45,241 nucleotides of DNA, taken from the NCBI GenBank assembly GCA_009783195.1, contig WRHP01000011.1, positions 1 to 45,241 of the forward strand, written 5' to 3'. The notes under the pieces were generated by a model. It was not told the origin of the DNA and did no database searches. It was given only the letters and a program-made list of their open reading frames with translations. Positions 1-29,077 of the stretch are shown one piece after another. Numbering within the stretch: the first letter of the stretch is position 1; each line of letters opens with the position of its first letter. The position numbers and the translations under genes are program-made. Source of the DNA: Syntrophorhabdaceae bacterium (GTDB lineage Bacteria; Desulfobacterota; Deferrimicrobia; Deferrimicrobiales; Deferrimicrobiaceae).

Positions 1-429
1 CTGGAATTCGATCTTGATGGTCTTCGATGGTGATTCGAAAACCATGTCCACGATTTTATATGCCGTGGATACGGACATGTCGTATTTATAGGCATCCTGC
101 TCAGCACAGGATACTTGGCAATATTCGCATCGCTGGTTACATCGCAAGGTGACAACCATCATATGAAGAGAAGTGAAATCCCGCAGATACGCCTTCCGCG
201 AGCGGTATTTTGCCGCTGCCTTCTGGATAGCGAAAACATCTTCTTCTGTCCTTCTTAGGAAGAGGCGGCTTTGCAGATCAAGGTAGCTCGGATTATCAGG
301 CGTTATTTTGCTTGAAATAAGCTCTTCAAAGGTTTCTTGCGAAACGAATAGATAATCTCCACATTCATTGACTAACAGAATACGGCCATTCGGATGACGC
401 CTGAACTGGAACGGCAAAAGTCTGTTCAT
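1..429 (-). CDS. hxsB: HxsB, radical SAM maturase of the His-Xaa-Ser system (5' part, runs off the left edge)
   Basis: The first 143 codons are present; the gene continues beyond position 1. The radical SAM signature CX3CX2C is complete (C97, C101, C104, within TLRCNQRCEYC) and would bind the [4Fe-4S] cluster that cleaves S-adenosylmethionine. The stretch before it (FTSLHMMVVTLRC) and after it (the DMS motif at 117-119, then PSKTIKIEFQ at the edge, normally followed by GGE) match my memory of the HxsB family. Residues 1-85 form the N-terminal part typical of HxsB (LFLRR at 56-60). The ATG overlaps the hxsD stop as ATGA, so the two genes are translationally coupled. By family knowledge HxsB pairs with a second radical SAM protein, HxsC, and is thought to modify HxsA, whose tail carries His-Xaa-Ser repeats; neither is in the window. 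The exact reaction is not known to me. Base composition is more A+T-rich than the chromosomal core. Confidence 0.85.
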   Translation of the reverse strand, partial: MNRLLPFQFRRHPNGRILLVNECGDYLFVSQETFEELISSKITPDNPSYLDLQSRLFLRRTEEDVFAIQKAAAKYRSRKAYLRDFTSLHMMVVTLRCNQRCEYCQVSCAEQDAYKYDMSVSTAYKIVDMVFESPSKTIKIEFQ

Positions 430-740
430 TTTTTTTCAAGGGGATAAAAAGCCTGCTCTACAATCATTTCTCGTAATTTCCCAAACCTGTTCTGGAGATC
501 ATGCCGAACTTGCTGCTCAATCAATTCGTTGCAGAATTTTTTCACTATGTTTTCGTCAACGTCATCCGCTTTTTTCGGCTGGATGGATATCTCGATATTA
601 TATTCAGCGGCAGGCTGGATCCCTACGTAATACCGATCCGTGAACTTAGCAGCAGCGGAAAAGATAGGCTCTCGCTCGAAAAACTCTTTGCTGAGCACGA
701 CTTTCCCATCATTAGGTGTTGATATTGATATGCCTTTCAT
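426..740 (-). CDS. hxsD: HxsD, small protein of the His-Xaa-Ser system
   Basis: A 104-residue soluble protein with no signal peptide or membrane segment. The N-terminal half has the pattern FSAAAKFTDRYYVGIQPA (about residues 27-44). The C-terminal helical half has FCNELIEQQVRHDLQNRFGK (about 69-88) followed by LREMIVEQAF. This fits the HxsD family, which is about 100 aa long and has a conserved N-x-L-x4-[LV]-R ... R-x-x-I-x3-AF tail. It directly precedes hxsB with a 4-nt overlap (ATGA), as expected in hxsD-hxsB-hxsC-hxsA loci. An AGGA ribosome site lies 6 nt before the ATG. Its role is unknown; being small and always paired with two radical SAM proteins, it could be a precursor-binding or scaffold protein (inference). 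It is the first gene of its operon, 119 nt from the integrase 3' end. Confidence 0.82.
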   Translation of the reverse strand: MKGISISTPNDGKVVLSKEFFEREPIFSAAAKFTDRYYVGIQPAAEYNIEISIQPKKADDVDENIVKKFCNELIEQQVRHDLQNRFGKLREMIVEQAFYPLEKK

Positions 741-859: not shown

Positions 860-2095
860 TCAACAAGGGCCTGCCTGCACCCGTAGCCCATCCAGATAAT
901 CAGCCCACTCCTGCATCATGCGGCGGCGCTCCGGAAGGTGTTGCGCGTAGTTGTAAGCCGCCCTGACAGAGTTTCTTTCAGAATGGGCAAGCTGTCGCTC
1001 GATCCAGTCCCGGTTATAGCCCTGCTCATTCAGCAACGTCGACGCCATGGAGCGAAAGCCATGCACTGTCATAGTGTCCTTGTCGTAACCCATGCGCCGT
1101 AATGCAGCAAGCAGGCAAACATCAGAGATAGGATTGGTATCGGCCCTCATGCTTGGAAACAGATACCTGCAATGCCCTGTATAACGCCGTAAATCCCCCA
1201 GGATGGCTTGAACCTGGCCGGCAAGGGGCACGATATGGGTTTCCCCCATTTTCATTCTGGAAGAAGGTATGCGCCATTCGGCGGCCTCCATATTGAACTC
1301 CGACCATTCAGCCCGGCGAAGCTCCCCAGGGCGAACGAAAACATACGGAGCCATACGCAAAGCCGCGCGGACAATCAAGTTGCCGGGGTAAGCGTCTATG
1401 TCGCGCAACAATGCGCCGATGGCTTTGGGTTCCGTAATGCTCGCAAGATTAGTCGGCTTGGCCGGAGAAAGAGCGCCCCGCAGATCGGCGGCGGTGTCAC
1501 GTTCCGCCCGTCCTGTTGCTATGGCATAACGAAATATCTGCCCGCAATTCTGCATGGCGCGGTGCGCAGTCTCAATGGCTCCTCTGGCCTCAATACGCCG
1601 CAGCGCTTCCAGCAGTTCCGGAGCGGTGACGGAGGAAATAATCTTGCTGCCAACAAGGGGGAAGATATCGTTTTCAAGCCGGGTAATTATCTTCTTGCCG
1701 TGACTGTCAGCCCAGGCATCCTTGTATTTGCTGTACCACTCACGGGCTACAACCTCAAAGGTGTTCTCCGTTTCCGCTCGGATAGAAGCTTTGACAGCCT
1801 TTTTGTGTGCGCTCGGGTCAATGCCTTGAACAATCAAAACTTTGGCGTCCTGGCGTTGCCGGCGGGCGTCAACAAGGGAAACAGCAGGGTATGCTCCGAT
1901 GCTCAAGGTTTTCTGTTTACCTTTGAAGCGATACGCCATCCGCCACAGCTTCCCTCCGGCGGCAGAAACGTGGATGTACAAACCACCGCCGTCAGATATT
2001 TTTTGATCCTTTCCGGAAGGTTTCAGCTTTCGCAGGAAAACATCCGTCAGTTTCACGCCGAAACCCTCCATTTCTGTTGGTATCGATTTCTTCAA
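860..2095 (-). CDS. P4-type tyrosine recombinase / integrase
   Basis: 411 residues, the usual length for prophage-P4/island integrases. The N-terminal arm-binding domain (DUF4102) is clear: LTDVFLRKLKPSGKDQKISD then GGGLYIHV, and further on LSIGAYPAVSLVDAR. A central SAM-like core-binding domain follows (about 115-210). The catalytic domain shows the first Arg in VRPGELRRAEW (about 257), the H-x-x-R box in TVHGFRS (about 346-349), a third-position His in QLAHSERN, and the nucleophile Tyr in AAYNYAQHLPERR (about 380). It appears intact. The leftmost usable start is TTG at 2095; an in-frame ATG at 2071 (MEGFGVKLTD) also gives a full arm domain, so the start is uncertain. It lies 141 nt beyond the 3' end of tRNA-Met, the usual arrangement of an element integrated into a tRNA 3' end. 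It most likely mobilises the element that carries hxsDB. Confidence 0.93.
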   Translation of the reverse strand: MKKSIPTEMEGFGVKLTDVFLRKLKPSGKDQKISDGGGLYIHVSAAGGKLWRMAYRFKGKQKTLSIGAYPAVSLVDARRQRQDAKVLIVQGIDPSAHKKAVKASIRAETENTFEVVAREWYSKYKDAWADSHGKKIITRLENDIFPLVGSKIISSVTAPELLEALRRIEARGAIETAHRAMQNCGQIFRYAIATGRAERDTAADLRGALSPAKPTNLASITEPKAIGALLRDIDAYPGNLIVRAALRMAPYVFVRPGELRRAEWSEFNMEAAEWRIPSSRMKMGETHIVPLAGQVQAILGDLRRYTGHCRYLFPSMRADTNPISDVCLLAALRRMGYDKDTMTVHGFRSMASTLLNEQGYNRDWIERQLAHSERNSVRAAYNYAQHLPERRRMMQEWADYLDGLRVQAGPC

Positions 2096-2177
2096 AACGC
2101 CATCTACCAGTGATTATGCCAACAGAAAGCTGATATGTACATAGATTTTGCGGGATGACGAGAAACTAACAATAACC

Positions 2178-2217
2178 GAAAAAACTAAGCCCCGCAAGGC
2201 CTTGGGGGCTTTGCGGG
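2178..2217 (-). terminator. Rho-independent terminator of tRNA-Met
   Basis: Positions 2191-2217 form an 11-bp stem (CCCGCAAGGCC pairing with GGCTTTGCGGG, one G-U pair) with a 5-nt loop. On the minus strand it is followed by a T-rich tract (TTAGTTTTTT). It lies 20 nt after the tRNA CCA end and before the integrase, so it should end the tRNA transcript. Confidence 0.85.
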
Positions 2218-2236
2218 ACTTTATTGGATTAAGGAT

Positions 2237-2260
2237 TGGTGGCGGTGCAGGGAATTGAAC
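2237..2260 (-). other. Putative attachment site (tRNA-Met 3' end)
   Basis: P4-type integrases commonly use the T-arm/acceptor 3' end of a tRNA as attB, regenerating the tRNA on one side. The integrase next to this tRNA 3' end implies that the core att repeat lies here. The second copy should be beyond the left edge; no copy is seen elsewhere in the window. The limits given are nominal. Confidence 0.35.
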
Positions 2261-2313
2261 CCCGGACACTGCGGATATGAGCCGCATGCTCTAACCGTCT
2301 GAGCTACACCGCC
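2237..2313 (-). tRNA. tRNA-Met (anticodon CAU)
   Basis: A 77-nt cloverleaf. The acceptor stem pairs GGCGGTG with CACCGCC, the discriminator is A, and CCA is encoded (2237-2239). The D-arm carries TAGCTCAG...GGTTAGAGC. The anticodon arm is TGCGG-CTCATAT-CCGCA with anticodon CAT. The T-arm contains GGTTCAATTCC. The body resembles elongator tRNA-Met of related proteobacteria. A tRNA-Ile2, whose CAU is modified to lysidine, cannot be fully excluded from sequence, but the acceptor stem and overall pattern favour Met. It is not the initiator, because position 1 pairs normally (G1-C72). The gene has its own promoter and terminator and probably served as attachment site of the adjacent element. Confidence 0.93.
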
Positions 2314-2332
2314 ACGCTACGCGGAATTTTTG

Positions 2333-2360
2333 ATTATAACCAAAGAAGCGGTCTTGTCAA
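2333..2360 (-). promoter_or_regulatory. Sigma70 promoter of tRNA-Met
   Basis: On the minus strand a perfect TTGACA (2355-2360) and a perfect TATAAT (2333-2338) are separated by 16 bp. They end 19 nt before the tRNA 5' end, as expected for a strong stable-RNA promoter. A G+C-rich GCGTAGCGT follows between the -10 element and the gene. Confidence 0.85.
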
Positions 2361-2370
2361 CGAAGCCGTA

Positions 2371-3879
2371 TCACTTCATCCACAGCAGACGCCACTGGGT
2401 GGCCCCACCAAGGATTTTTCCGGCATCCATCGAAGCAAGACCAAACCGGGGAAATCCTGGGCGGCTCGTATCCGACAGCATGTCTCTTGCCGCCGAATCG
2501 GTTTGCTGGGAGCGCCACTCAAGCCGCAGCGAGTTTTCAGCTTGCGACAAACAAACCAGTTCGGTTCGCGTGGCAAGCCGCAGATTCTCGAAGAATGTGC
2601 CCGCGGACACCAGCGTGTTCATAACAACCACTTCGTCTATCCCATCCCGGTTCAGGTCGGCGGCAATCATCACCGCGGGGAAATCAACCTTTTCGTTGAC
2701 CGCTCCCAGCGGAATCTCAACGCCGGAGAAGGTGTCTATTCCTTCCCATAATTTTTTTCCGTCCGAATCTATGTATACAAGACGGTCACGGGATGACAAA
2801 ACGACATACCGCGCTTCTTTCATGTGCCGAACCGGGATGAAACCGAATATGAAAGTTCCCTCCGGAAGCGGCAACGTCCCGCCGGAAGCTCTTGGCGCCG
2901 CGATTCCATCCGCCATAAGATCCACGCGGAAAACCGGTCCCTCGTAAATCTTTTCCGGGTCCGTTTCCTGTCCGACGAGCGTCATACCTTCAGGTCCAAG
3001 GTCAACAACCCGCAGCAGGTACGGAATGTTTGAATAAGTCTTGAGGTATTCGGTGCCGTCAAATTTCCATATATCAGAGACCGCCCTCCTTCCGACAAAA
3101 CGAACCGCCACTATCTCGGCCACGCCATCACGGTCAATGTCTTTGGCATCGACATAAAACAATCCGGGGCCGGCGCCCGTGATCCGCGCCTTCTCTTTGA
3201 GATCGCCCCCTTCTATTGAATAGATCCCAATTTCATTTGCATAAGCCGCGGCGACTTCCCATTTTCCGTCCCGGTCGAGATCGGACATCGCAACCGACAC
3301 GACTTCACCCTGAATCGGCCCGCTTTGATCGATCACGCCTGATAATTTTGGCGTCGTGTCTTTACCTTGAGCGATCACAACCGCCGGTCCGAAGAAAAGC
3401 TCGTTTATCCTGTTCGCCGCTTCGCTTCCCATACGACCGAACGTATCGGCATATCCGGAAGAATACGCGGATATCTCACTCAGAATCCCGGATACTACGA
3501 CCGTCCGGCCCTTTTCCGTATCTTCCAGCGGGGCAAGCGTTACATCTAACGTCACTCCTTTCCCTATCCTCGACAAAGTACTTGTCACGGTATAAGACGC
3601 TCCAAGAGAACGCGCTCCACGCCTGCGCCGATCCTCCACGGAAGACGAAAAAACCCGAGCTGCGGCTGAGCGGACTTCGAACCGCTTCCCAAGCTGTTCC
3701 TTCATTGCGTTTTCGACGATCTGTACGGCAGGAGCAAGAACATTGTCATTGGCGACGGCCGAGTCAACCTCCGGAGGGAACAACGCCACGATATGGCGGG
3801 CAGCGCGGGCTTCCTGAACAAAAACGAGAACTGCCGCGAAAAGAAGAAGCGGGGCGATCCACCGCGTTGGATGCTTCAT
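2371..3879 (-). CDS. Secreted FG-GAP/VCBS-like beta-propeller protein
   Basis: 502 residues with a Sec signal peptide (hydrophobic 9-21, likely cleavage after ARA at 24-26). Residues about 30-170 form an alpha/beta region that resembles the TolB/CsgG-type N-terminal fold of envelope proteins (weak, by eye). From about 200 on it has calcium-loop motifs of FG-GAP blades: DLDRDGKWE (200-208), DIDRDGVAE (about 247) and DLNRDGIDE (about 410), each followed by a hydrophobic beta strand. This suggests a periplasmic or surface beta-propeller of unknown function. The ATG overlaps the stop of the upstream hydrolase gene (ATGA), so the two are co-transcribed. No ligand or enzyme residues are recognisable. 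It ends 57 nt before the tRNA-Met gene. Confidence 0.75.
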   Translation of the reverse strand: MKHPTRWIAPLLLFAAVLVFVQEARAARHIVALFPPEVDSAVANDNVLAPAVQIVENAMKEQLGKRFEVRSAAARVFSSSVEDRRRRGARSLGASYTVTSTLSRIGKGVTLDVTLAPLEDTEKGRTVVVSGILSEISAYSSGYADTFGRMGSEAANRINELFFGPAVVIAQGKDTTPKLSGVIDQSGPIQGEVVSVAMSDLDRDGKWEVAAAYANEIGIYSIEGGDLKEKARITGAGPGLFYVDAKDIDRDGVAEIVAVRFVGRRAVSDIWKFDGTEYLKTYSNIPYLLRVVDLGPEGMTLVGQETDPEKIYEGPVFRVDLMADGIAAPRASGGTLPLPEGTFIFGFIPVRHMKEARYVVLSSRDRLVYIDSDGKKLWEGIDTFSGVEIPLGAVNEKVDFPAVMIAADLNRDGIDEVVVMNTLVSAGTFFENLRLATRTELVCLSQAENSLRLEWRSQQTDSAARDMLSDTSRPGFPRFGLASMDAGKILGGATQWRLLWMK

Positions 3880-4436
3880 CGGAGCAGGGAGGATATTTTT
3901 TTGAATTCCGGCGTGCCTGCCGTCTCCAATAACTGATAGATCGCGGCTTCCGTCGGAAGCACCCTGACGTCCGCGTCGCGCATGGCTTCGATCCCAAGAC
4001 GATGATCGTGGATACGCCTGGACGACACGGCATCCTCGGCGACAAACACCTCGTATCCGGCATTTACAAGATCTATGGCCGTTTGGTAAACACAGATGTG
4101 GGTTTCCATTCCTGTCAACAGAACCTGTCGCCTCCCAGTTCTCACAAGAGTGTACAGAAAAGACTCGTTACGGGCGCAGCTAAATGTGATCTTTTCCGTC
4201 GTTTCATAAACCTTTCCTTTCAACGCTTCAAGGATCGAGGGGATGGTCCGCCCGAGGCCTTTCGGATACTGCTCTGTAAGCAGGATCGGCAGCTTGAGTG
4301 TTCCAGCAGCCTCCGCCGCGACGATTATGTTCCTGCGCGAGCGCTCGTACAACTCGCTGTCTATAGCGGAAACAAGACGCTCCTGGACATCTATTACGAC
4401 AAGCGCCGCGTCTTCCCGGTTCAGCACCCTGTTCAC
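3876..4436 (-). CDS. Isochorismatase-family cysteine hydrolase
   Basis: 186 residues from a GTG at 4436 (NRVLNREDAALVVIDVQERL follows). I chose this start because GAGGAG lies 9 nt upstream; the frame stays open to a TTG at 4466. The catalytic triad of the isochorismatase-like superfamily is present: Asp16 (VVIDVQ), Lys82 (YETTEKITF) and Cys115 in GMETHICVYQTA. Relatives hydrolyse isochorismate, nicotinamide, N-carbamoylsarcosine or related amides, and the substrate cannot be read from the sequence. The METHICV form is common in uncharacterised bacterial hydrolases of this family. The protein is cytoplasmic, with no signal peptide. It overlaps the downstream FG-GAP-like gene by 4 nt. Confidence 0.85.
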   Translation of the reverse strand: MNRVLNREDAALVVIDVQERLVSAIDSELYERSRRNIIVAAEAAGTLKLPILLTEQYPKGLGRTIPSILEALKGKVYETTEKITFSCARNESFLYTLVRTGRRQVLLTGMETHICVYQTAIDLVNAGYEVFVAEDAVSSRRIHDHRLGIEAMRDADVRVLPTEAAIYQLLETAGTPEFKKISSLLR

Positions 4437-4724
4437 TTTACGCTTCTCCTCGACCGCCGCAGCCAAACGCCTTGCCTGATAAACATCGCATTATATCCCG
4501 ACACCCTCCCGAAGTTGGCGGCGAATCTTGCGCGTCAGGCAACAGCGAGCCATGTTTGACCGCAATTTGGTATTAAGCGCGGGCACGCTTATAAAGGTAT
4601 CCCTTAAGCGCAAGCTTTTTTGCGACGGCTCTTTAAACCAGATAAATAGCGGCTTGAACCCATTATTTGCCGGCCGGCTGTCGATTCCGTTGCCATATTT
4701 CCGTGTCTTGGGTAACATAAGATT

Positions 4725-21029: not shown

Positions 21030-22790
21030 TCAGTCCGTATCGACCGCGGGAACGGATTTTCTCTCCTCAAACTGCTTCAGATAAACATTCCTGTATAAGG
21101 AATCCCAAGCCATAAGTTCTTCGTGCTTGCCTTTCTCAACGATCTGTCCGTTCTCGATCACAATAATTATGTCCGCGTTTCGGACAGTCGAGAGCCGGTG
21201 CGCGATTACAAACGTCGTCCTTCCCTTCATGAGCCGATCCAGGGCTTCCTGAACTATACGCTCCGAAGCCGTATCAAGAGCGGAAGTGGCTTCGTCAAGG
21301 ATCAGGATCGGGGCGTCACGCAAAAGAGCGCGGGCAATCGCTATACGCTGCCGCTCGCCTCCAGACAGCTTCATCCCCTGTTCGCCTATGGCCGATTCGT
21401 ACCCGTCCCGCATCCTGGAGATGAAACCGTGAGCGCCCGCGGAGCGCGACGCCTCCTCCACCTGCTCCATCGTCGCGCCTTTTTTGCCATATGCAATGTT
21501 GTTGCGAATTGTGTCATTGAACAGGGTGGTATGCTGCCCCACAATGCCTATGCGCGACCTTAACGAAGCGACCGTGTAGTCGCGGATGTCTTTGCCGTCG
21601 ATGCGCACAGCGCCTTCCTGCGGATCATAAAAACGCGGAATCATATCGACAATCGTGGTCTTTCCCGCGCCGGAAGAACCAACCAGCGCGATCATCGTGC
21701 CCTTGGAAACATCCAGGGTAACGCCCTTTAGAACACTTAGGCCGTCCTCCTTGTATTGAAACGAAACGTTATCGAAAGAGATACCTTCCCGTATCTCTTT
21801 CAGCTCCACGGCTCCGGGCCGGTCTTTGATATCCGGAAGTGTATCTATTACAAAGAAAACGCGCTCCGCCGCCGCGATCCCCTGCTGGATTGTATTGTTG
21901 ATGCCGGAGAGACCCTTGATTGGCCTGTAGAGCATAAGCAAAGCGGCCATAAAAGAGGTAAATGTTCCAAGAGTGCTTTGCCCATTTATTACGCTGTGGC
22001 CGCCGTAGTAGATGACAGCCGCTATGCCTATTCCCGCGAACATTTCCGAAAGAGGGGCCGTCATAGCCCGAACCTTGACAGCTTTCATGGCTAGCCTGAA
22101 CAGGTCGCTGTTTTTTGCCGAAAACCGGTCGGACTCGTACTCTTCGGAGCTGAAGGACTTGACAAGCTTCGCGCCGCTGATCGTCTCATGCAGATGCTCG
22201 GTCAGTACGCCGGCGATCTCCTGGCTTTTTGTGCTGGTGCGGCGCAGCTTTTTGCCGAACTTGACGATGGGCCAGACCGCCATAGGAAAAACGACAAGCG
22301 CCACAATGGAAAGTTTCCAGTCCTGATAGATAACAACGCCGATCAGAAATATCACCGTGAAGAAATCCTTTACCAGTCCGCTTGTCACATCGGTGATGGC
22401 GCTTTGCATCATCCCTACATCGTTCAGGATTCTCGATATCAGCGTTCCCGTGGTGTTCCGGCCGAAGAAAGACATGGACAATGACTGCATGTGCCGGTAC
22501 AGGTGTTCCCGTATATCCCGGACGATCCGCTGCCCCACATCGCTCATAAGATATTGCTGGGCAAATTCGCAGATTCCTCTCAGCAAATACGCAATAAAAA
22601 GCAGTAGCGGGATAAAAGACAGATACTGGGGGTTCATCTTGATGAAAATGCCGTCAAGCATCGGCCTGATCAGATAGATAATCCCCGCGTTCAAGGCGGA
22701 GAAACCGACCATGAACAAACCCGCCAGCGCCAGTTTCCAGATGTACGGACGCGCGTATGCCAGCATTCTCTTGTAGATCTTTATACCCAT
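21030..22790 (-). CDS. msbA: Lipid A export ABC transporter MsbA
   Basis: 586 residues, a fused half-transporter. Six transmembrane helices lie within about 15-310. The nucleotide-binding domain follows: Walker A GSSGAGKTT, signature LSGGERQRIAIARALL, Walker B ILILDEATSALD and the H-loop VIAHRLSTV. The homodimer flips core-lipid A across the inner membrane. Its place between lpxB and waaA supports MsbA over a drug exporter. The start overlaps the lpxB 3' end by 10 nt. Confidence 0.95.
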   Translation of the reverse strand: MGIKIYKRMLAYARPYIWKLALAGLFMVGFSALNAGIIYLIRPMLDGIFIKMNPQYLSFIPLLLFIAYLLRGICEFAQQYLMSDVGQRIVRDIREHLYRHMQSLSMSFFGRNTTGTLISRILNDVGMMQSAITDVTSGLVKDFFTVIFLIGVVIYQDWKLSIVALVVFPMAVWPIVKFGKKLRRTSTKSQEIAGVLTEHLHETISGAKLVKSFSSEEYESDRFSAKNSDLFRLAMKAVKVRAMTAPLSEMFAGIGIAAVIYYGGHSVINGQSTLGTFTSFMAALLMLYRPIKGLSGINNTIQQGIAAAERVFFVIDTLPDIKDRPGAVELKEIREGISFDNVSFQYKEDGLSVLKGVTLDVSKGTMIALVGSSGAGKTTIVDMIPRFYDPQEGAVRIDGKDIRDYTVASLRSRIGIVGQHTTLFNDTIRNNIAYGKKGATMEQVEEASRSAGAHGFISRMRDGYESAIGEQGMKLSGGERQRIAIARALLRDAPILILDEATSALDTASERIVQEALDRLMKGRTTFVIAHRLSTVRNADIIIVIENGQIVEKGKHEELMAWDSLYRNVYLKQFEERKSVPAVDTD

Positions 22791-23926
22791 GCTTCACGCG
22801 CCTCCGCCGCCAGCATATCGACAACCGCCGCCGCCGCCCCTTGTCCGCGAAGCTGATCCCGCAGCGACAGACATCTGGCCCTCAAGTCCTCAAGCCTGTC
22901 GTTATCTTCCAGCATAGCTCCCATGGCATCGGCAATCCGCTGCGGCGCGCAATCGTCCTGTATCAATTCCGGCAGGAATCTCTCGCCCGCCACTATGTTC
23001 GGAAGCCCGATCCGATCCACCTTCGCCAGCATTTTCCCTATTCCGTAGGAGATACGCGATGTCTTATAGACAATCACCGACGGCACTCCAAGCAAGGCAA
23101 GCTCAAGTGTAGCCGTCCCGGATACCGAAACGGCCGCGGTCAATCCCCGAAACATCAGATACGGTTCGGAATCCACCAGATACACGGGAATACCGTATTT
23201 TTTGATCTCCCGCTCTATTGGCTCCTTAAGCGCGGGTCTGGCAACGGGGAGAGCAAAGCGGATATCAGGATGTTTATCAAGCAGGGTCCTCGCCGCTTCA
23301 AGGAGAATCGGGAGGTGGCGCGAAACCTCTCCCTGGCGGCTACCGGGAAGCAGGCCGACAGTTGTTTTTCCCTCTGGCAAGCCAAACCTCCCCGGATTCG
23401 GCCGCGCGTCAAGCCACGGCTCCAGTTCGTCGAGCAGCGGATGCCCGGCAAAAACGGCGTTGACGCCATATTTACGCAAAAGCGTTTCCTCAAACGGAAA
23501 CAGCACTACTACTCCGCGGGTAAACCCGGCTATAGTGCGGGCGCGCCCGGTCCGCCACGCCCAAAGCTGCGGAGGAATATAGTAGATCACCGGTATGCCA
23601 AACGCTTGCGCGGCAAGCCCCACGCGGAAATTGAATTCCGGAAAATCGACCAGGACCACGGCTCCGACATCCCCGCGCCGGATACGCTTTTTAGCGGCTG
23701 AAAGAGCTTCTCGAATCGCAAATATATGCGACAAGATCTCCGTAAACCCCACAACGGAGATCTTCGTGTAGTCACGCAGCAGCTTTACCCCTTCGGATTC
23801 GAGGCGATGCCCTCCTATGCCTTCCATAGGAACCTCCGGGAACCGCCTGCGGAATTCCCTGGCGACCCGGACGGCGTACATCTCGCCGGACGGTTCCCCG
23901 CATAGAAAGAACAGCGTCTTGGGCAT
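22781..23926 (-). CDS. lpxB: Lipid-A-disaccharide synthase
   Basis: 381 residues, GT19 family, a GT-B peripheral membrane enzyme. It joins UDP-2,3-diacylglucosamine to lipid X. Motifs: FLCGEPSGEMYAVRVAREF near the N-terminus, MEGIGGHRLESEG, VVLVDFPEFNFRVG, YYIPPQLWAWRTGRA, FPFEETLLRKYGV, LLPGSRQGEV, and the acceptor/donor end SVSGTATLELALLGVPSVIVYKT (in shorter parts). It follows lpxA by 2 nt with no lpxI between. Confidence 0.97.
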   Translation of the reverse strand: MPKTLFFLCGEPSGEMYAVRVAREFRRRFPEVPMEGIGGHRLESEGVKLLRDYTKISVVGFTEILSHIFAIREALSAAKKRIRRGDVGAVVLVDFPEFNFRVGLAAQAFGIPVIYYIPPQLWAWRTGRARTIAGFTRGVVVLFPFEETLLRKYGVNAVFAGHPLLDELEPWLDARPNPGRFGLPEGKTTVGLLPGSRQGEVSRHLPILLEAARTLLDKHPDIRFALPVARPALKEPIEREIKKYGIPVYLVDSEPYLMFRGLTAAVSVSGTATLELALLGVPSVIVYKTSRISYGIGKMLAKVDRIGLPNIVAGERFLPELIQDDCAPQRIADAMGAMLEDNDRLEDLRARCLSLRDQLRGQGAAAAVVDMLAAEAREAWV

Positions 23927-23928
23927 CC

Positions 23929-24711
23929 CTACCTCAGCACACCCCGCTCGCTCGCGCGGATGAATTCAAGCAGGTGTTCCACTTCAGGAAGCCGCGGAAG
24001 CTCGGCCTCTACCTTGGCAAGAGATTCCTTGAGCGAGTCCTTCGACCGGAAAATCATAAAATATGCTTTTTTAAGCACAGCTATGGTTTCTTCGGAAACC
24101 CCGTTTCTTCTCAAACCGATAAGGTTCAATCCGAACAGGCTTCTCTCCTTACCCTGACGCAAGGTCGCAGCCTTCACATATGGAGGAACATCCTTCCCTA
24201 TAGCGGAGGTTCCGCCGATGATGGAAAGAGTGCCGATACGCGTAAACTGGTGTATCGCCACCAGCCCCCCGATATTTGCGCCATCCTCCACGGTAATGTG
24301 CCCGGCGAAAGTGGCCGCGTTTGCCATGATCACGCGATTGCCGATATGGCAGTCGTGAGCAATATGGCAATACGCCATCACCATGTTGCTGTTTCCGAGG
24401 CGGGTGACCCCTCCGCCATGCGGCGTGCCGCGGTTTATGGTGGCGAATTCCCGAACGATGTTATTGTCACCCATCTCTACCCAGGTGTCCTCGCCGCGAA
24501 ACTTCAGATCCTGCGGAGGCGCCCCGACGGAGGCAAAAGAGGCAATCCGGTTCCCTTTCCCCATGCGCACATGCGACTCGATCAGAGCGTGCGAGCCGAT
24601 GACGCACTCATCGCCGATGGTTACTTTAGGACCGATGACGGCGTATGGGCCTACGGACACCTCCTTGCCAAGTTCCGCTCCAGGATCAATTATTGCCGTC
24701 TGGTGAATCAT
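23929..24711 (-). CDS. lpxA: Acyl-ACP--UDP-N-acetylglucosamine O-acyltransferase
   Basis: 260 residues. A left-handed beta-helix of hexapeptide repeats fills the first two thirds, with a helical C-terminus. First step of lipid A synthesis: transfer of a 3-hydroxyacyl chain to UDP-GlcNAc. The catalytic His lies in CHIAHDCHIGNRV (about 120). The residue at the E. coli Gly173 position, counted 13 past the His of HQF, is Gly, which in E. coli allows a C14 chain; here this is inference. The tail EFIRASERGVLR is typical. The start overlaps the fabZ stop by 4 nt. Confidence 0.97.
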   Translation of the reverse strand: MIHQTAIIDPGAELGKEVSVGPYAVIGPKVTIGDECVIGSHALIESHVRMGKGNRIASFASVGAPPQDLKFRGEDTWVEMGDNNIVREFATINRGTPHGGGVTRLGNSNMVMAYCHIAHDCHIGNRVIMANAATFAGHITVEDGANIGGLVAIHQFTRIGTLSIIGGTSAIGKDVPPYVKAATLRQGKERSLFGLNLIGLRRNGVSEETIAVLKKAYFMIFRSKDSLKESLAKVEAELPRLPEVEHLLEFIRASERGVLR

Positions 24712-25172
24712 GCCTCTTCCTTCCTGTCGGCGTCAGCGTATGCGGTATTCTCGACAATTGACGCGGTAACCTCCGCCTTCGCCACCACCACACCATCCAC
24801 TTTCGCTTCCCCGCGCATCTTCCAGACCGGCCCTTTATGGGCGATGATGTCCACTTCGATCCGAAGCTGATCGCCAGGCACCACGGGGCGCTTGAATTTC
24901 GCGTTCTCTATACCGGCGAAATAGGCCATCCGCTTCGCTCCGCCCAGCGCCTTCAAAGCCAGGATTCCGCCAACCTGCGCGATGCTTTCAACAAGCAAAA
25001 CGCCCGGCATAACCGGATGCCCCGGAAAATGTCCCTGGAAAAACGGCTCGTTAATCGTAACGTTTTTAATGCCGACGATTCGCTTTCCGGGGTCGAGTTC
25101 CACGATCCGATCCACAAGCAGGAACGGATACCGGTGCGGCAGCAACTCCATAATTTCCAGGACAGAGATCAC
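24708..25172 (-). CDS. fabZ: 3-hydroxyacyl-ACP dehydratase
   Basis: 154 residues. It dehydrates 3-hydroxyacyl-ACP in fatty acid elongation and competes with LpxA/LpxD for the same substrates, hence its usual place between them. It has a hot-dog fold with the catalytic His in FFQGHFPGHPVMPGVLLVES and the Glu in the following helix. LLPHRYPFLLVDRI is the N-terminal signature. The start is GTG at 25172 with GGAGG 8 nt upstream. Confidence 0.97.
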   Translation of the reverse strand: MISVLEIMELLPHRYPFLLVDRIVELDPGKRIVGIKNVTINEPFFQGHFPGHPVMPGVLLVESIAQVGGILALKALGGAKRMAYFAGIENAKFKRPVVPGDQLRIEVDIIAHKGPVWKMRGEAKVDGVVVAKAEVTASIVENTAYADADRKEEA

Positions 25173-25174
25173 TT

Positions 25175-26206
25175 TTATTCCTCCCCCGACGCGGATTTGG
25201 CGGCCTCGAGCCGTTTGACTCTCCGGAAAAGCTCAGGCAGCGACGACATGAGCATCGCCACCCGCAGCCATGTCTTGTGCGGTATCGCCGGAATTCCGGA
25301 CCACACCTGTGATTCTTTCGTCGAAATTGAGGAGCCAACACCCGACTTTGCTCCCAGCATAACGCCGTCTCCCACTTCGATATGGCCGGCCAGCCCCACC
25401 TGTCCGCCCAACATCACGCGGCTTCCAACCTTGCAGCTTCCCGAAATTCCGGTTTGCGAGGCAATTACCGTATCGCTGCCTATGGCGACGTTATGTCCCA
25501 CCTGGATCAGATTGTCGAGTTTGGTCCCGCGATCAATACGGGTCATGCCAAGGGTAGCGCGATCAATGGTAGTATTCGCGCCGATTTCCACATCGTCGCC
25601 GATCTCGACGATCCCGACCTGTGGAATTTTCATGAATCCCTTTTCCGAAGGAGCAAAACCAAACCCGTCGCTTCCGATCACGCACCCGGAATGAAGTATC
25701 GCGCGCTTTCCCACGCGAACCCCGTGATATAAAGTCACGCGGGGATAGATCAGGCTGTCTTCCCCGACGGAAACTTCCTTGCCCACGTAAGATCCGGCCA
25801 TAATGATTACCCTGTCTCCGACAATCGCTCCTTTTTCCACAACAACGAAAGGACCTATGGAGACATCTTTCCCAAGCGCGGCGTCCGCGTGCACGGACGC
25901 CATCGGCGATACTCCAGGCTCCGGGCGCTCCCGCGGGTGGAACAACTCCACTACGCGCGCAAAAGCAAGGTAAGGATTTGGCGACAAAAGAAAAGCGCAC
26001 CCGGCGTCCGGCACCGGGTCCTTGGCTATCACGGCGGCGGCTTTGGTATCGCGCGCATGCGCCGTGTATTTCGGATTCGACAGAAACGTAACCTGTCCGG
26101 GCAACGCCTCCTCGATCGCGGCGACGCCGTTTACTTCGGCATCGTCGCCATCCAGAACAGCGCCGATCATCGAAGCGATCTCGGACAGACGAAGCCTGTT
26201 TTCCAC
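25175..26206 (-). CDS. lpxD: UDP-3-O-acylglucosamine N-acyltransferase
   Basis: 343 residues. The N-terminal uridine-binding domain (about 1-100, VTFLSNPKYTAHA) is followed by a hexapeptide-repeat beta-helix and a short C-terminal helix. The catalytic His is in LIQVGHNVAIGSDTV (about 240). TTIDRATLGMTRI precedes it. It adds the second 3-hydroxyacyl chain to the UDP-sugar. The start is GTG at 26206 with AGGAGG upstream. It stands between ompH and fabZ, the classic order. Confidence 0.97.
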   Translation of the reverse strand: MENRLRLSEIASMIGAVLDGDDAEVNGVAAIEEALPGQVTFLSNPKYTAHARDTKAAAVIAKDPVPDAGCAFLLSPNPYLAFARVVELFHPRERPEPGVSPMASVHADAALGKDVSIGPFVVVEKGAIVGDRVIIMAGSYVGKEVSVGEDSLIYPRVTLYHGVRVGKRAILHSGCVIGSDGFGFAPSEKGFMKIPQVGIVEIGDDVEIGANTTIDRATLGMTRIDRGTKLDNLIQVGHNVAIGSDTVIASQTGISGSCKVGSRVMLGGQVGLAGHIEVGDGVMLGAKSGVGSSISTKESQVWSGIPAIPHKTWLRVAMLMSSLPELFRRVKRLEAAKSASGEE

Positions 26207-26217
26207 TGCCCGCCTCC

Positions 26218-26754
26218 TTATTTCGCCGCCGGCGCCTGCGGATTCTTGTTCACAAGTCCGAGAACGCGATCGGTGATGTCAAGGGAATCAATAACAAAGA
26301 CCACCCCCGCGGACCGCTCTAAAACGAGGTCGTACTTTTCCGCTTTTACAACGATATCAATCTGGTTTTCGATCTGTTTGAGCACGTCCCGCGTCAGCTC
26401 TCCCTGCCGCTCCTGCATCTCCTGCTCGCTTTCCTGCGTAAGCTTGCGCAGATCAGCTACCTTGGCGGCCAGCGCGTCTTCCTTTTCTTTCAGTTTGTCT
26501 TTGCCAAGCACAACCTTGTTTTTGTCGATATCGTCTTTAAGCTTTTTTGCCTCTTCCTGCTTTGCGTCGATACTCTTTTTCAACTCTTCATACCGGGCTT
26601 CCATCTTCTTTTTGGCCGTCTTCCCGGCCTCTGACTGGTTCAACACTTTATTGACATCTATGACCGCGATTTTAATGTCCTGGGCGGCAATAGATGTTCC
26701 AGCAAAGAAAATCACTACCAAGAACGCAACCGCTACAACCGATGTTTTCCGCAT
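26218..26754 (-). CDS. ompH: OmpH/Skp periplasmic chaperone
   Basis: 178 residues. There is a signal peptide (VVAVAFLVVIFFAGTSIA, cut near IAA at 22-24), then a short beta start IKIAVIDVNKVLNQSEAGK, then a long charged coiled coil (about 50-140, rich in Lys and Glu), as in the Skp tentacles. It carries unfolded outer-membrane proteins to BamA, encoded just upstream. The conserved DVNKVL and GK at 45-46 are family features. Confidence 0.92.
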   Translation of the reverse strand: MRKTSVVAVAFLVVIFFAGTSIAAQDIKIAVIDVNKVLNQSEAGKTAKKKMEARYEELKKSIDAKQEEAKKLKDDIDKNKVVLGKDKLKEKEDALAAKVADLRKLTQESEQEMQERQGELTRDVLKQIENQIDIVVKAEKYDLVLERSAGVVFVIDSLDITDRVLGLVNKNPQAPAAK

Positions 26755-26788
26755 TGTTTCCGCTCCTTAAAAAGTTTAGGTTCTCTCT

Positions 26789-29077
26789 TTAAAACGCTGT
26801 TCCGACCGTAAACTCAAATACGCCCGCGGGCGCGCCCGGCGGCCGGTCGGTATTCCATCCATATTCAAACCGCATGGGGCCCATCGGCGAGTACCAGCGG
26901 ACACCCACGCCATACCCTGTCCAAAGACCTTCGTGCCGAAAAGGAGCCGCCCCCTTGCCCCATGTGTTGCCGGCATCGATGAACAGCACCCCTTTAAACC
27001 CAACATCCGCGGCCAGCGGGAACTGGAATTCGAAGTTCGACACAAAATACTTGTTCCCTCCAATGCTGTCGCCAGTCGCCGGATCAATCGGAGAAATGCT
27101 CCGGGCCCTGAATCCGCGAACGCTGTAAGGTCCGCCCAGGAAAAATCGTTCATACAGGGGAACCTCTCCCCGCGACCAGCCGCCGTCTGTCGGAACCACC
27201 TGCCCCCAATTGAAATTCATTGAGAACACGGTACTCTCGGTCACCGGGTAATAAGCCTTGTAGTTCAAGAGGTACTTCACAAACTGGCTGTCTCCGCCAA
27301 ATGGACCTCCCGCATATTGCAAGGACGCCGAATACACTTTCCCCTTCGATGGATCCATAAACCGGTTGGTCGTATTTCTAACGATGTTGAAGATAACGCT
27401 GTGGGTCGACCGGCGTCCCTTATTTATCTCTTCCTGGATGAGCCTTGACGGATTGACATTGCTCCGCGCGGAAATCCTGGTGCTATCCACCGAAAATACA
27501 ACGCTTGCGTTCACAAATCGGGACAGGTCGATCCCGGTTCCGACCCTTCCTCCGACGGAGTCTTTCTCGAAATCGTTGTACCGGATCTTGGTTTTGTACA
27601 GCGACCCGATCAAGCTGAAGTCCGTATCCATGAAGTGGGGAGCAATGAAATCAAACATGTACATGTTGCGGCGCGATCCGAACTGCGACGAGAGACTGGC
27701 CCGCCATCCTCGCCCAAACAGATTGTTCTCGCTGAGCTGGATGATTCCGAAAGGCCCGTCCATCGTACTATACCCGGCTCCGCCCGACAGGGTGCCTGTC
27801 GGCGCCTCCTGGACTTCGACGTTCACATCCATCTCGCCAGGCTTGCCCGACGGAGCCGTTGTGATTTTCACGTCTTTGAAATAGGAGGGACGCGTAAGGT
27901 TTTCCTTGCTTTCTTTCAGGTTGGTAGCCGAGTAGGTCTCTCCTTCCGAAAACAGGAGTCGTCTGCGGATGATCCGGTCGTATGTCTTCGTGTTTCCCGA
28001 AACATCGACTTTGCCGAAGCGAAACTTGGCGCCACGGTCAATGCGATAGACCACATCGGTAACGGGATACTCTTTCCGCCTCTCCGCGCCCGGCGACACC
28101 AGCGCCTGCGCGTACCCGTCATCGTTTACCAGAGTGGTCAAGGCAAGCAGGTCTGAAACCAGTTCTTCGCGATTGAAAATATCTCCGCTTTTAAGCTTCA
28201 CCGTCTTGCGCAGCGTCTCCTCGGCAAGACCGTGATCACCGATGAAAGTGATATTCCCAACCCGGTATTGTTTCCCCTCCGCCACCCGTATCAGAAGAAC
28301 CATCCCGCCTTTTCCGCGCTGAAACTGCGGATCAAAAATTTTGGAGTCCATGAATCCGGCGTTCTGGTACGTCGCCTCTATCTTCAGGATGTCGGTTTCA
28401 AGAACGTCTCTCTTTACGACCCCGGATTGGGTGATGAAAGAGAAGAACCCTTTTTCGCTGGTTTCCATCTTCTTCAAAAGTTGTCTCTTGGAGAAGTACA
28501 GATTCCCGGAGAATACAATCTTCTCGATCTTGAGCTTTTCGCCTTCAGAAATCGCAAACTCGATCCGTGTGGAACCGTCTTGTTCCTGCGTTACGGAAGA
28601 CTCGACGGTTGCATCAATAAAGCCTTGATTTTGAAGAACTTCTTTCAACTTGCTCACCGACTCTTTAACCTTGTCCTCAGAAAACAGGGAGCGCTCTTTC
28701 AAGGCAAGAGCTTCACGAAGCGTACTCTGTTCGACATCTTTGTTCCCCGTAATCGCAATCGCTCCCACGATCGGCTTTTCTGTTACAACGACTGTCAGCC
28801 GGAACCCCTTGCGCTCCTCTTCACTGTCGATAAAAACATCGCGGAAGTACCCCATCCGGGAGATCGCTTTTATATCGTCCTTGATTTTATCAAGGTCCAG
28901 TTCCTGTCCGACTTGCGTGGACATGGCCTGCCTGATGGAATCAGCGGGAACACGATTGGCGCCGCGAACATCTATCGCCGTAATCTTGAAGCCTTCCCCC
29001 GAAACGCTTCCGGCCGCAACCAGTATCCATAACAGCGCCGCCGGCAGTATCCGCGCCGTGAAAAACCGGACCCTCAT
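26789..29077 (-). CDS. bamA: Outer membrane assembly factor BamA
   Basis: 762 residues. Signal peptide 1-27 (cut near GSVSG), five periplasmic POTRA repeats (about 30-350) and a 16-strand Omp85 barrel. The barrel loop-6 motif VRGF (GGPYSVRGFRARS, about 650) is intact. The C-terminal strand ends in Phe (FEFTVGTAF), as needed for barrel recognition. It inserts outer-membrane proteins, including LptD. The start overlaps the lolD stop by ATGA, and ompH follows after 34 nt. Confidence 0.97.
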   Translation of the reverse strand: MRVRFFTARILPAALLWILVAAGSVSGEGFKITAIDVRGANRVPADSIRQAMSTQVGQELDLDKIKDDIKAISRMGYFRDVFIDSEEERKGFRLTVVVTEKPIVGAIAITGNKDVEQSTLREALALKERSLFSEDKVKESVSKLKEVLQNQGFIDATVESSVTQEQDGSTRIEFAISEGEKLKIEKIVFSGNLYFSKRQLLKKMETSEKGFFSFITQSGVVKRDVLETDILKIEATYQNAGFMDSKIFDPQFQRGKGGMVLLIRVAEGKQYRVGNITFIGDHGLAEETLRKTVKLKSGDIFNREELVSDLLALTTLVNDDGYAQALVSPGAERRKEYPVTDVVYRIDRGAKFRFGKVDVSGNTKTYDRIIRRRLLFSEGETYSATNLKESKENLTRPSYFKDVKITTAPSGKPGEMDVNVEVQEAPTGTLSGGAGYSTMDGPFGIIQLSENNLFGRGWRASLSSQFGSRRNMYMFDFIAPHFMDTDFSLIGSLYKTKIRYNDFEKDSVGGRVGTGIDLSRFVNASVVFSVDSTRISARSNVNPSRLIQEEINKGRRSTHSVIFNIVRNTTNRFMDPSKGKVYSASLQYAGGPFGGDSQFVKYLLNYKAYYPVTESTVFSMNFNWGQVVPTDGGWSRGEVPLYERFFLGGPYSVRGFRARSISPIDPATGDSIGGNKYFVSNFEFQFPLAADVGFKGVLFIDAGNTWGKGAAPFRHEGLWTGYGVGVRWYSPMGPMRFEYGWNTDRPPGAPAGVFEFTVGTAF

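Follow-up and report, generated by a model that had tools for sequence, protein, structure and literature searches.

A partial HXS (His-Xaa-Ser) radical SAM operon on a probable integrase island at a tRNA-Met gene

Introduction

Two reading frames at the left edge of a contig raised the question of whether they belong to an HXS (His-Xaa-Ser) system, how they came to lie there, and what such an operon might make. The definition of the system is a bioinformatic one (Haft and Basu, as cited in PMC9062424). Our literature search found no report of an HXS product, of its role, or of a modification of HxsA by HxsB and HxsC. Published mentions of HXS were incidental: one in a list of P. aeruginosa genes, among which are ICE genes, and one in a V. 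parahaemolyticus region. A first-pass annotation had singled out the locus as little-described biology. This held for the chemistry and the role; the family, however, has curated models and is common on plasmids, ICEs and phages.

Results and Discussion

Identification of hxsD and hxsB

The window analysed here is a whole contig (C11) of 45,241 bp. It comes from a 1.74-Mb assembly that has 81 contigs and is 88% complete. The features discussed are collected in Table 1. Both hxs reading frames and their ATGA overlap, as proposed in the first-pass annotation, were seen in the sequence.

Table 1. Coordinates of the features of the window and of nuclease genes beside related HXS loci
Feature	Position	Strand	Remarks
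hxsB, 5' part only	1..429	(-)	143 of about 480 aa; open at contig start
Radical SAM CX3CX2C motif, C97/C101/C104	118..141	(-)	alignment-invariant
HxsB N-terminal domain, residues 1-83	181..429	(-)	AlphaFold2 model of L034 homologue; RRE-like by topology
ATGA overlap, hxsD stop / hxsB start	426..429	(-)	sequence
hxsD	426..740	(-)	104 aa; TIGR03976 over curated cut-off
P4-type tyrosine integrase, 411 aa	860..2095	(-)	PF13356, PF22022, PF00589; NF007246 E 2.6e-80
tRNA-Met (CAT), probable integration site	2237..2313	(-)	3' end at 2237; ARAGORN
Chromosomal flank: FG-GAP protein and isochorismatase-family gene	2371..4466	(-)	same order beside tRNA-Met in relatives
Nuclease gene beside HXS, L029	11051-11815		Endonuclease I; close relative
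Nuclease gene beside HXS, L031	6823-7566		Endonuclease I; close relative
Nuclease gene beside HXS, L045	14862-15437
Further loci with a nuclease beside HXS			L046, L032, L033, L098, L117, L152, L048, L060

Searches with the HXS models clearly favoured HxsD and HxsB. HxsD scored 64.4 bits against TIGR03976 of NCBIfam (curated cut-off 50, E 9e-18). The HxsB fragment scored 145.5 bits against TIGR03978 (E 2e-42, model positions 1-139 of 466), and the next-best family gave 26 bits. The cut-off of TIGR03978, 370 bits, is set for full-length HxsB, and the fragment could not reach it because the sequence is cut after 143 residues. N-terminal pieces of equal length from three complete operons scored 145, 145.5 and 143 bits, in agreement with the score of the fragment. 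The accessions TIGR03976-03979, which the first-pass annotation had given, were right and stand for D, C, B and A in that order.

The CX3CX2C motif was intact, as had been claimed, and its three cysteines were invariant both in 12 aligned HxsB N-termini and in a 39-row HxsB alignment. We conclude that the two genes almost certainly open an HXS operon.

Since the window is the whole contig, the island runs off its left edge, and the sequence covers only about 30% of hxsB. The fragment might be a decayed remnant, in which hxsB stops soon after the contig end and the operon no longer works. Broken HXS loci are known: hxsB is split by an IS21-like pair in genome G060 (L033, 9485-11848) and is also split in G096, and L063 holds a degenerate copy. 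Against this, both visible frames are intact, the catalytic residues are conserved and the overlap is normal, and we regard decay as improbable.

No hxsC gene scored over the cut-off anywhere in the 88%-complete assembly, the contig stopping inside hxsB. The best match to TIGR03977 (HxsC) elsewhere in the genome was an unrelated maturase, at 31 bits versus the cut-off of 268. Neither did the HMM search of the assembly find the C-terminus of HxsB over the cut-off. HxsA was sought in the same assembly both by HMM cut-off and by a DNA pattern for a run of H-x-S codons; neither gave a match. Because the contig breaks off within hxsB, in an incomplete assembly, the absence of hxsC and hxsA is no evidence of their loss. 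Given these unseen genes and the lack of an H-x-S run in the assembly, the operon itself could nevertheless be incomplete.

Two matches in the assembly were rejected. The one on contig C22, considered as the missing HXS gene, is a different SPASM-type maturase. The one on contig C46, considered as HxsA, is a VWA-like protein with a peptidoglycan-binding-like tail that resembles the C-terminus of HxsA.

The integrase and the tRNA-Met gene

The hxs genes had been described as lying just inside an integrase. A gap of 119 bp separates the integrase gene from hxsD, the integrase being upstream, and on its other side the integrase faces the 3' end of a tRNA-Met gene. The uninterrupted site was found in four relatives (G022, of the same genus, G016, G006 and G011), in which a response-regulator gene directly follows tRNA-Met and there is no integrase. 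In the window the integrase and the hxs genes occupy the place of this gene. To the right of tRNA-Met, the genes of the contig read, by eye, as ordinary core genes.

The G+C content of the island part was 44% versus 54.7%. No comparable HxsB (E 1e-30) was found in the 23 other genomes of the same order. From the adjacency, the orientation, the lower G+C and the lack of HxsB in these 23 genomes, we infer that hxs and integrase form one element. Carriage on a mobile element, also put forward in the first-pass annotation, was thus supported, and insertion of the island at the 3' end of tRNA-Met is very probable.

The arrangement is like that of other P4-type integrase islands at tRNA genes, with the integrase just behind the 3' end of the tRNA and the cargo behind the integrase. 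It differs in that the far end and the direct repeat of this island were not found. A second copy of the 27-bp 3' end of tRNA-Met was absent from the assembly with up to 3 mismatches allowed. The response regulator expected on the far flank likewise had no close match there (best, 27% identity).

An arrangement of the same kind was seen in L038, a locus of a Desulfovibrio MAG. Its integrase, 51% identical, lies beside the tmRNA gene (ssrA), and HXS follows about 5.5 kb further on.

Relatives of the locus and their distribution

In the closest relatives (L034, L036, L037, L038, L041 and others) the order of the operon was hxsD-hxsB-hxsC-hxsA. HxsB of L034 was 76% identical to that of the window over the fragment, and its HxsC scored over its own cut-off (323 versus 268 bits). 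The window thus resembles the HXS system of TIGR03976-03979 in an HxsD over the cut-off, in the genuine scores of the HxsB fragment, and in the gene order and overlap of the relatives. Unlike that system, it has no hxsC or hxsA in its assembly, and its genes lie on an island at tRNA-Met, in a lineage that otherwise lacks HXS.

In a tree of HxsB N-termini the window fell in a supported group (98/97). Its other members come from MAGs that bear the labels Desulfovibrio, Deltaproteobacteria (two) and Spirochaetia, and it is nested in a larger group (100/97) composed mostly of Desulfovibrionaceae. As the nearest HxsB proteins sit in MAGs with these labels, acquisition by transfer is likely. The mixed taxonomy of the group could come partly from mis-binned contigs. 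The bin labels may point to termite guts.

A search with the 143 residues of HxsB returned 349 plasmid records, 309 of which were from Klebsiella, and two phage records, including Leptospira phage LE1. On an IMG/VR contig (L140), HXS adjoins a Rha-like gene and an ORF of 2,864 aa (both named by eye). Mobile carriage is therefore common for HXS and is not special to the window. The locus is a genuine, incomplete and mobile HXS example, and an ordinary representative of an already known family. It adds a clear case of HXS acquisition by a tRNA-site island; for experiments, the complete operons elsewhere are better suited.

Predicted structures of HxsB and HxsD

In the AlphaFold2 model of the L034 HxsB (pLDDT 87), residues 1-83 form three strands followed by three helices; the radical SAM core comes next, and a Cys-containing C-terminal region last. 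The order of secondary structures in residues 1-83 fits an RRE, and from this topology we consider the predicted domain RRE-like, the structural comparison being that of the whole chain. The best Foldseek match of the whole model was CteB (5wgg, E 4e-20).

HxsD was modelled (pLDDT 92) as strand-strand-helix-strand-strand-long helix. This predicted fold ruled it out as an RRE, and the model matched no PDB fold under E 0.001.

The layout of the HxsB model, a predicted RRE-like domain, a radical SAM domain and a C-terminal Cys region, resembles that of the SPASM maturases CteB/SCIFF, PapB, TigE and ChlB. HxsB is nevertheless only about 18% identical to CteB, and HXS differs from these systems in having two maturases plus HxsD. 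After HxsB itself, the highest-scoring model for the L034 HxsB was that of the thioether maturase PapB (122 bits). Thioether chemistry was set aside, however, since the HxsA arrays are almost free of Cys (only 4 of 79 distinct arrays contain one), which makes it unlikely for HXS, in contrast to the SPASM thioether maturases.

Against the models of cyclophane maturases, the L034 HxsB scored 56 bits (GrrM/OscB), 53 bits (YhhB) and 41 bits (FxsB), whereas the cut-offs are above 300. With the best of these at 56 versus 310, the family match failed. Homology therefore does not point to cyclophanes, the cyclophane scores being low and PapB being the highest after HxsB.

The H-x-S array of HxsA and its possible modification

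The HxsA proteins of the relatives are short, with the H-x-S array at or near the end. Among 79 distinct arrays, comprising 528 triplets, position 1 was always His (528/528), and position 3 was Ser in 523, Ala in 4 and Phe in 1; the rule used to detect HxsA favours H-x-S, so these counts are partly built in, although internal mismatches were allowed and were rare. Position 2 was occupied by 17 residue types.

A hydrophobic N-terminal segment was present in 84 of 89 HxsA candidates. Two from Sphingomonadaceae (L118 and L159) have Tat-type starts, RRKFLK and RRSFLK, which fit modification before export. A peptidoglycan-binding domain (PF01471, over the cut-off) forms the end of six long HxsA proteins. 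That the array is the substrate and is exported is, in our judgement, quite likely.

The HxsA proteins of L029, L036, L037, L038, L041 and L140 scored below the cut-offs of the HxsA, A2, A3 and A4 models, and that of L031 just passed the A2 cut-off. Short HxsA proteins in the clade of the window may therefore be missed by annotation pipelines. Additional HxsA genes were seen at some loci. At the Desulfobacca locus L030/L057 a second HxsA is encoded on the opposite strand; its array is similar and includes H-x-A triplets. In L082 and L096 (9522-9983), a gene between hxsD and hxsB codes for an HxsA paralogue with 19 H-x-S motifs in spaced groups.

The explanation that we favour, with a probability of about 0.6, is an hxsD-hxsB-(hxsC-hxsA) operon, the last two genes being unseen here, carried on a tRNA-Met element and modifying HxsA. 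HxsB, with its predicted RRE-like domain, radical SAM core and SPASM-type Fe-S region, would act together with HxsC in the cytosol on HxsA, the small secreted substrate with the tandem H-x-S array. HxsD would be a non-catalytic partner. Each His (i) may be joined to the Ser at i+2, as in the three-residue cyclophanes, and the rigid, His-rich array would then be exported, either free or peptidoglycan-bound.

The linkage itself, proposed by analogy, is a tentative part of this scheme. It is favoured because the spacing of His(i) and Ser(i+2) equals that of three-residue cyclophanes, and because such links are known, separately, with His as donor and with Ser as acceptor. Cross-links from His are made by HaaB (C2(His)-Cb(Ala)) and YhhB (C2(His)-Cb(Arg)), and one onto Ser by MscB (C4(Phe)-Cb(Ser)) (PMC11002830). 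The substrates of the triceptide maturases GrrM/OscB, FxsB, YhhB and HaaB are similar in pairing an aromatic residue (i) with an acceptor two positions later (i+2). HxsB differs from these enzymes in scoring far under the GrrM, YhhB and FxsB cut-offs, and the HXS product is itself only proposed.

HxsB and HxsC might instead oxidise the repeated Ser residues singly, to formylglycine or a dehydro-type residue, giving a reactive or metal-binding array without cross-links. The enzyme anSME makes formylglycine by oxidising Ser or Cys. Both in sequence and in fold it is one of the nearest solved structures, and it was also a top structural match of the L034 HxsB model; the near-constant Ser at position 3 of the arrays agrees with such a reaction. 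Single oxidation would, however, not need the invariant His two residues before each Ser, the arrays have Ala in place of Ser at four positions, and two different maturases plus HxsD would be unusual for it. Ser oxidation, proposed by analogy with anSME, seems unlikely, somewhat more so than the His-Ser linkage.

The survey of relatives offers several handles on the system: the export signal and occasional wall-binding domain of HxsA, the strict i/i+2 register, the RRE-like domain proposed for HxsB, and lineage-specific neighbours.

Genes beside HXS loci

Gene clustering around 96 HXS loci revealed few common partners beyond hxsDBCA.

Of 47 non-Bacteroidota loci, 11 had a secreted nuclease next to them, of one of three non-homologous types. 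Seven were SNases, two were Endonuclease I and two were S1/P1-like, both of these just below the Pfam cut-off. HXS might then be a mobile cargo acting together with secreted nucleases on the cell surface, for instance against incoming DNA or in nucleotide scavenging. All 11 nuclease genes lay less than 3 kb from the operon ends, while 57% of the scanned sequence lies farther out, but this figure is biased because the seeds had been picked as neighbours; the non-seed SNase genes gave 6/6 (P about 0.006). No nuclease match was found in 15 additional plasmid loci or in the Bacteroidota loci. A nuclease partnership as a general role of HXS was unsupported by the plasmid set and is kept as a lead only, one that we consider very unlikely to be right.

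Also very unlikely is a broader reading, in which HXS is a transferable envelope module. HxsB and HxsC would turn the array of HxsA into tandem His-Ser cyclophanes, a ladder of rigid imidazoles held in the periplasm or on peptidoglycan, and in some lineages this module would act together with the adjacent secreted nucleases.

The modified array might also serve as a scaffold on the cell surface, to which a GT2 and a polytopic membrane enzyme encoded next to hxsA add sugars once it has been exported. A GT2 gene (PF00535) and an adjacent polytopic membrane gene just follow hxsA in the same direction in L083, L086, L091 and L104. In L045 the membrane gene occurs without GT2, and in L059 both genes are upstream of hxsD, with GT2 on the opposite strand. 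In L082 and L096 the gene after hxsA codes for a membrane protein of the DUF6056 type, and in L070 for a similar one. These genes are found in a minority of loci, however, mostly of Bacteroidota plus two others, and most of the membrane proteins have weak Pfam matches or none, so that for these a glycosyltransferase activity can only be guessed at. We rate a glycosylated scaffold as about as improbable as a decayed operon.

Contig C22 of the same assembly (22000-27151, L009) carries a second SPASM-type radical SAM maturase, whose best model was PapB (108 bits, far under the cut-off). It forms a pair of overlapping genes, 3076-4566 (-) and 1605-3089 (-) in L009, with a WD40 protein. The start of this WD40 protein is Tat-lipoprotein-like, and its tail is rich in Cys and of the CTCN type. 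The maturase and the WD40 protein are possibly a separate maturase-substrate pair.
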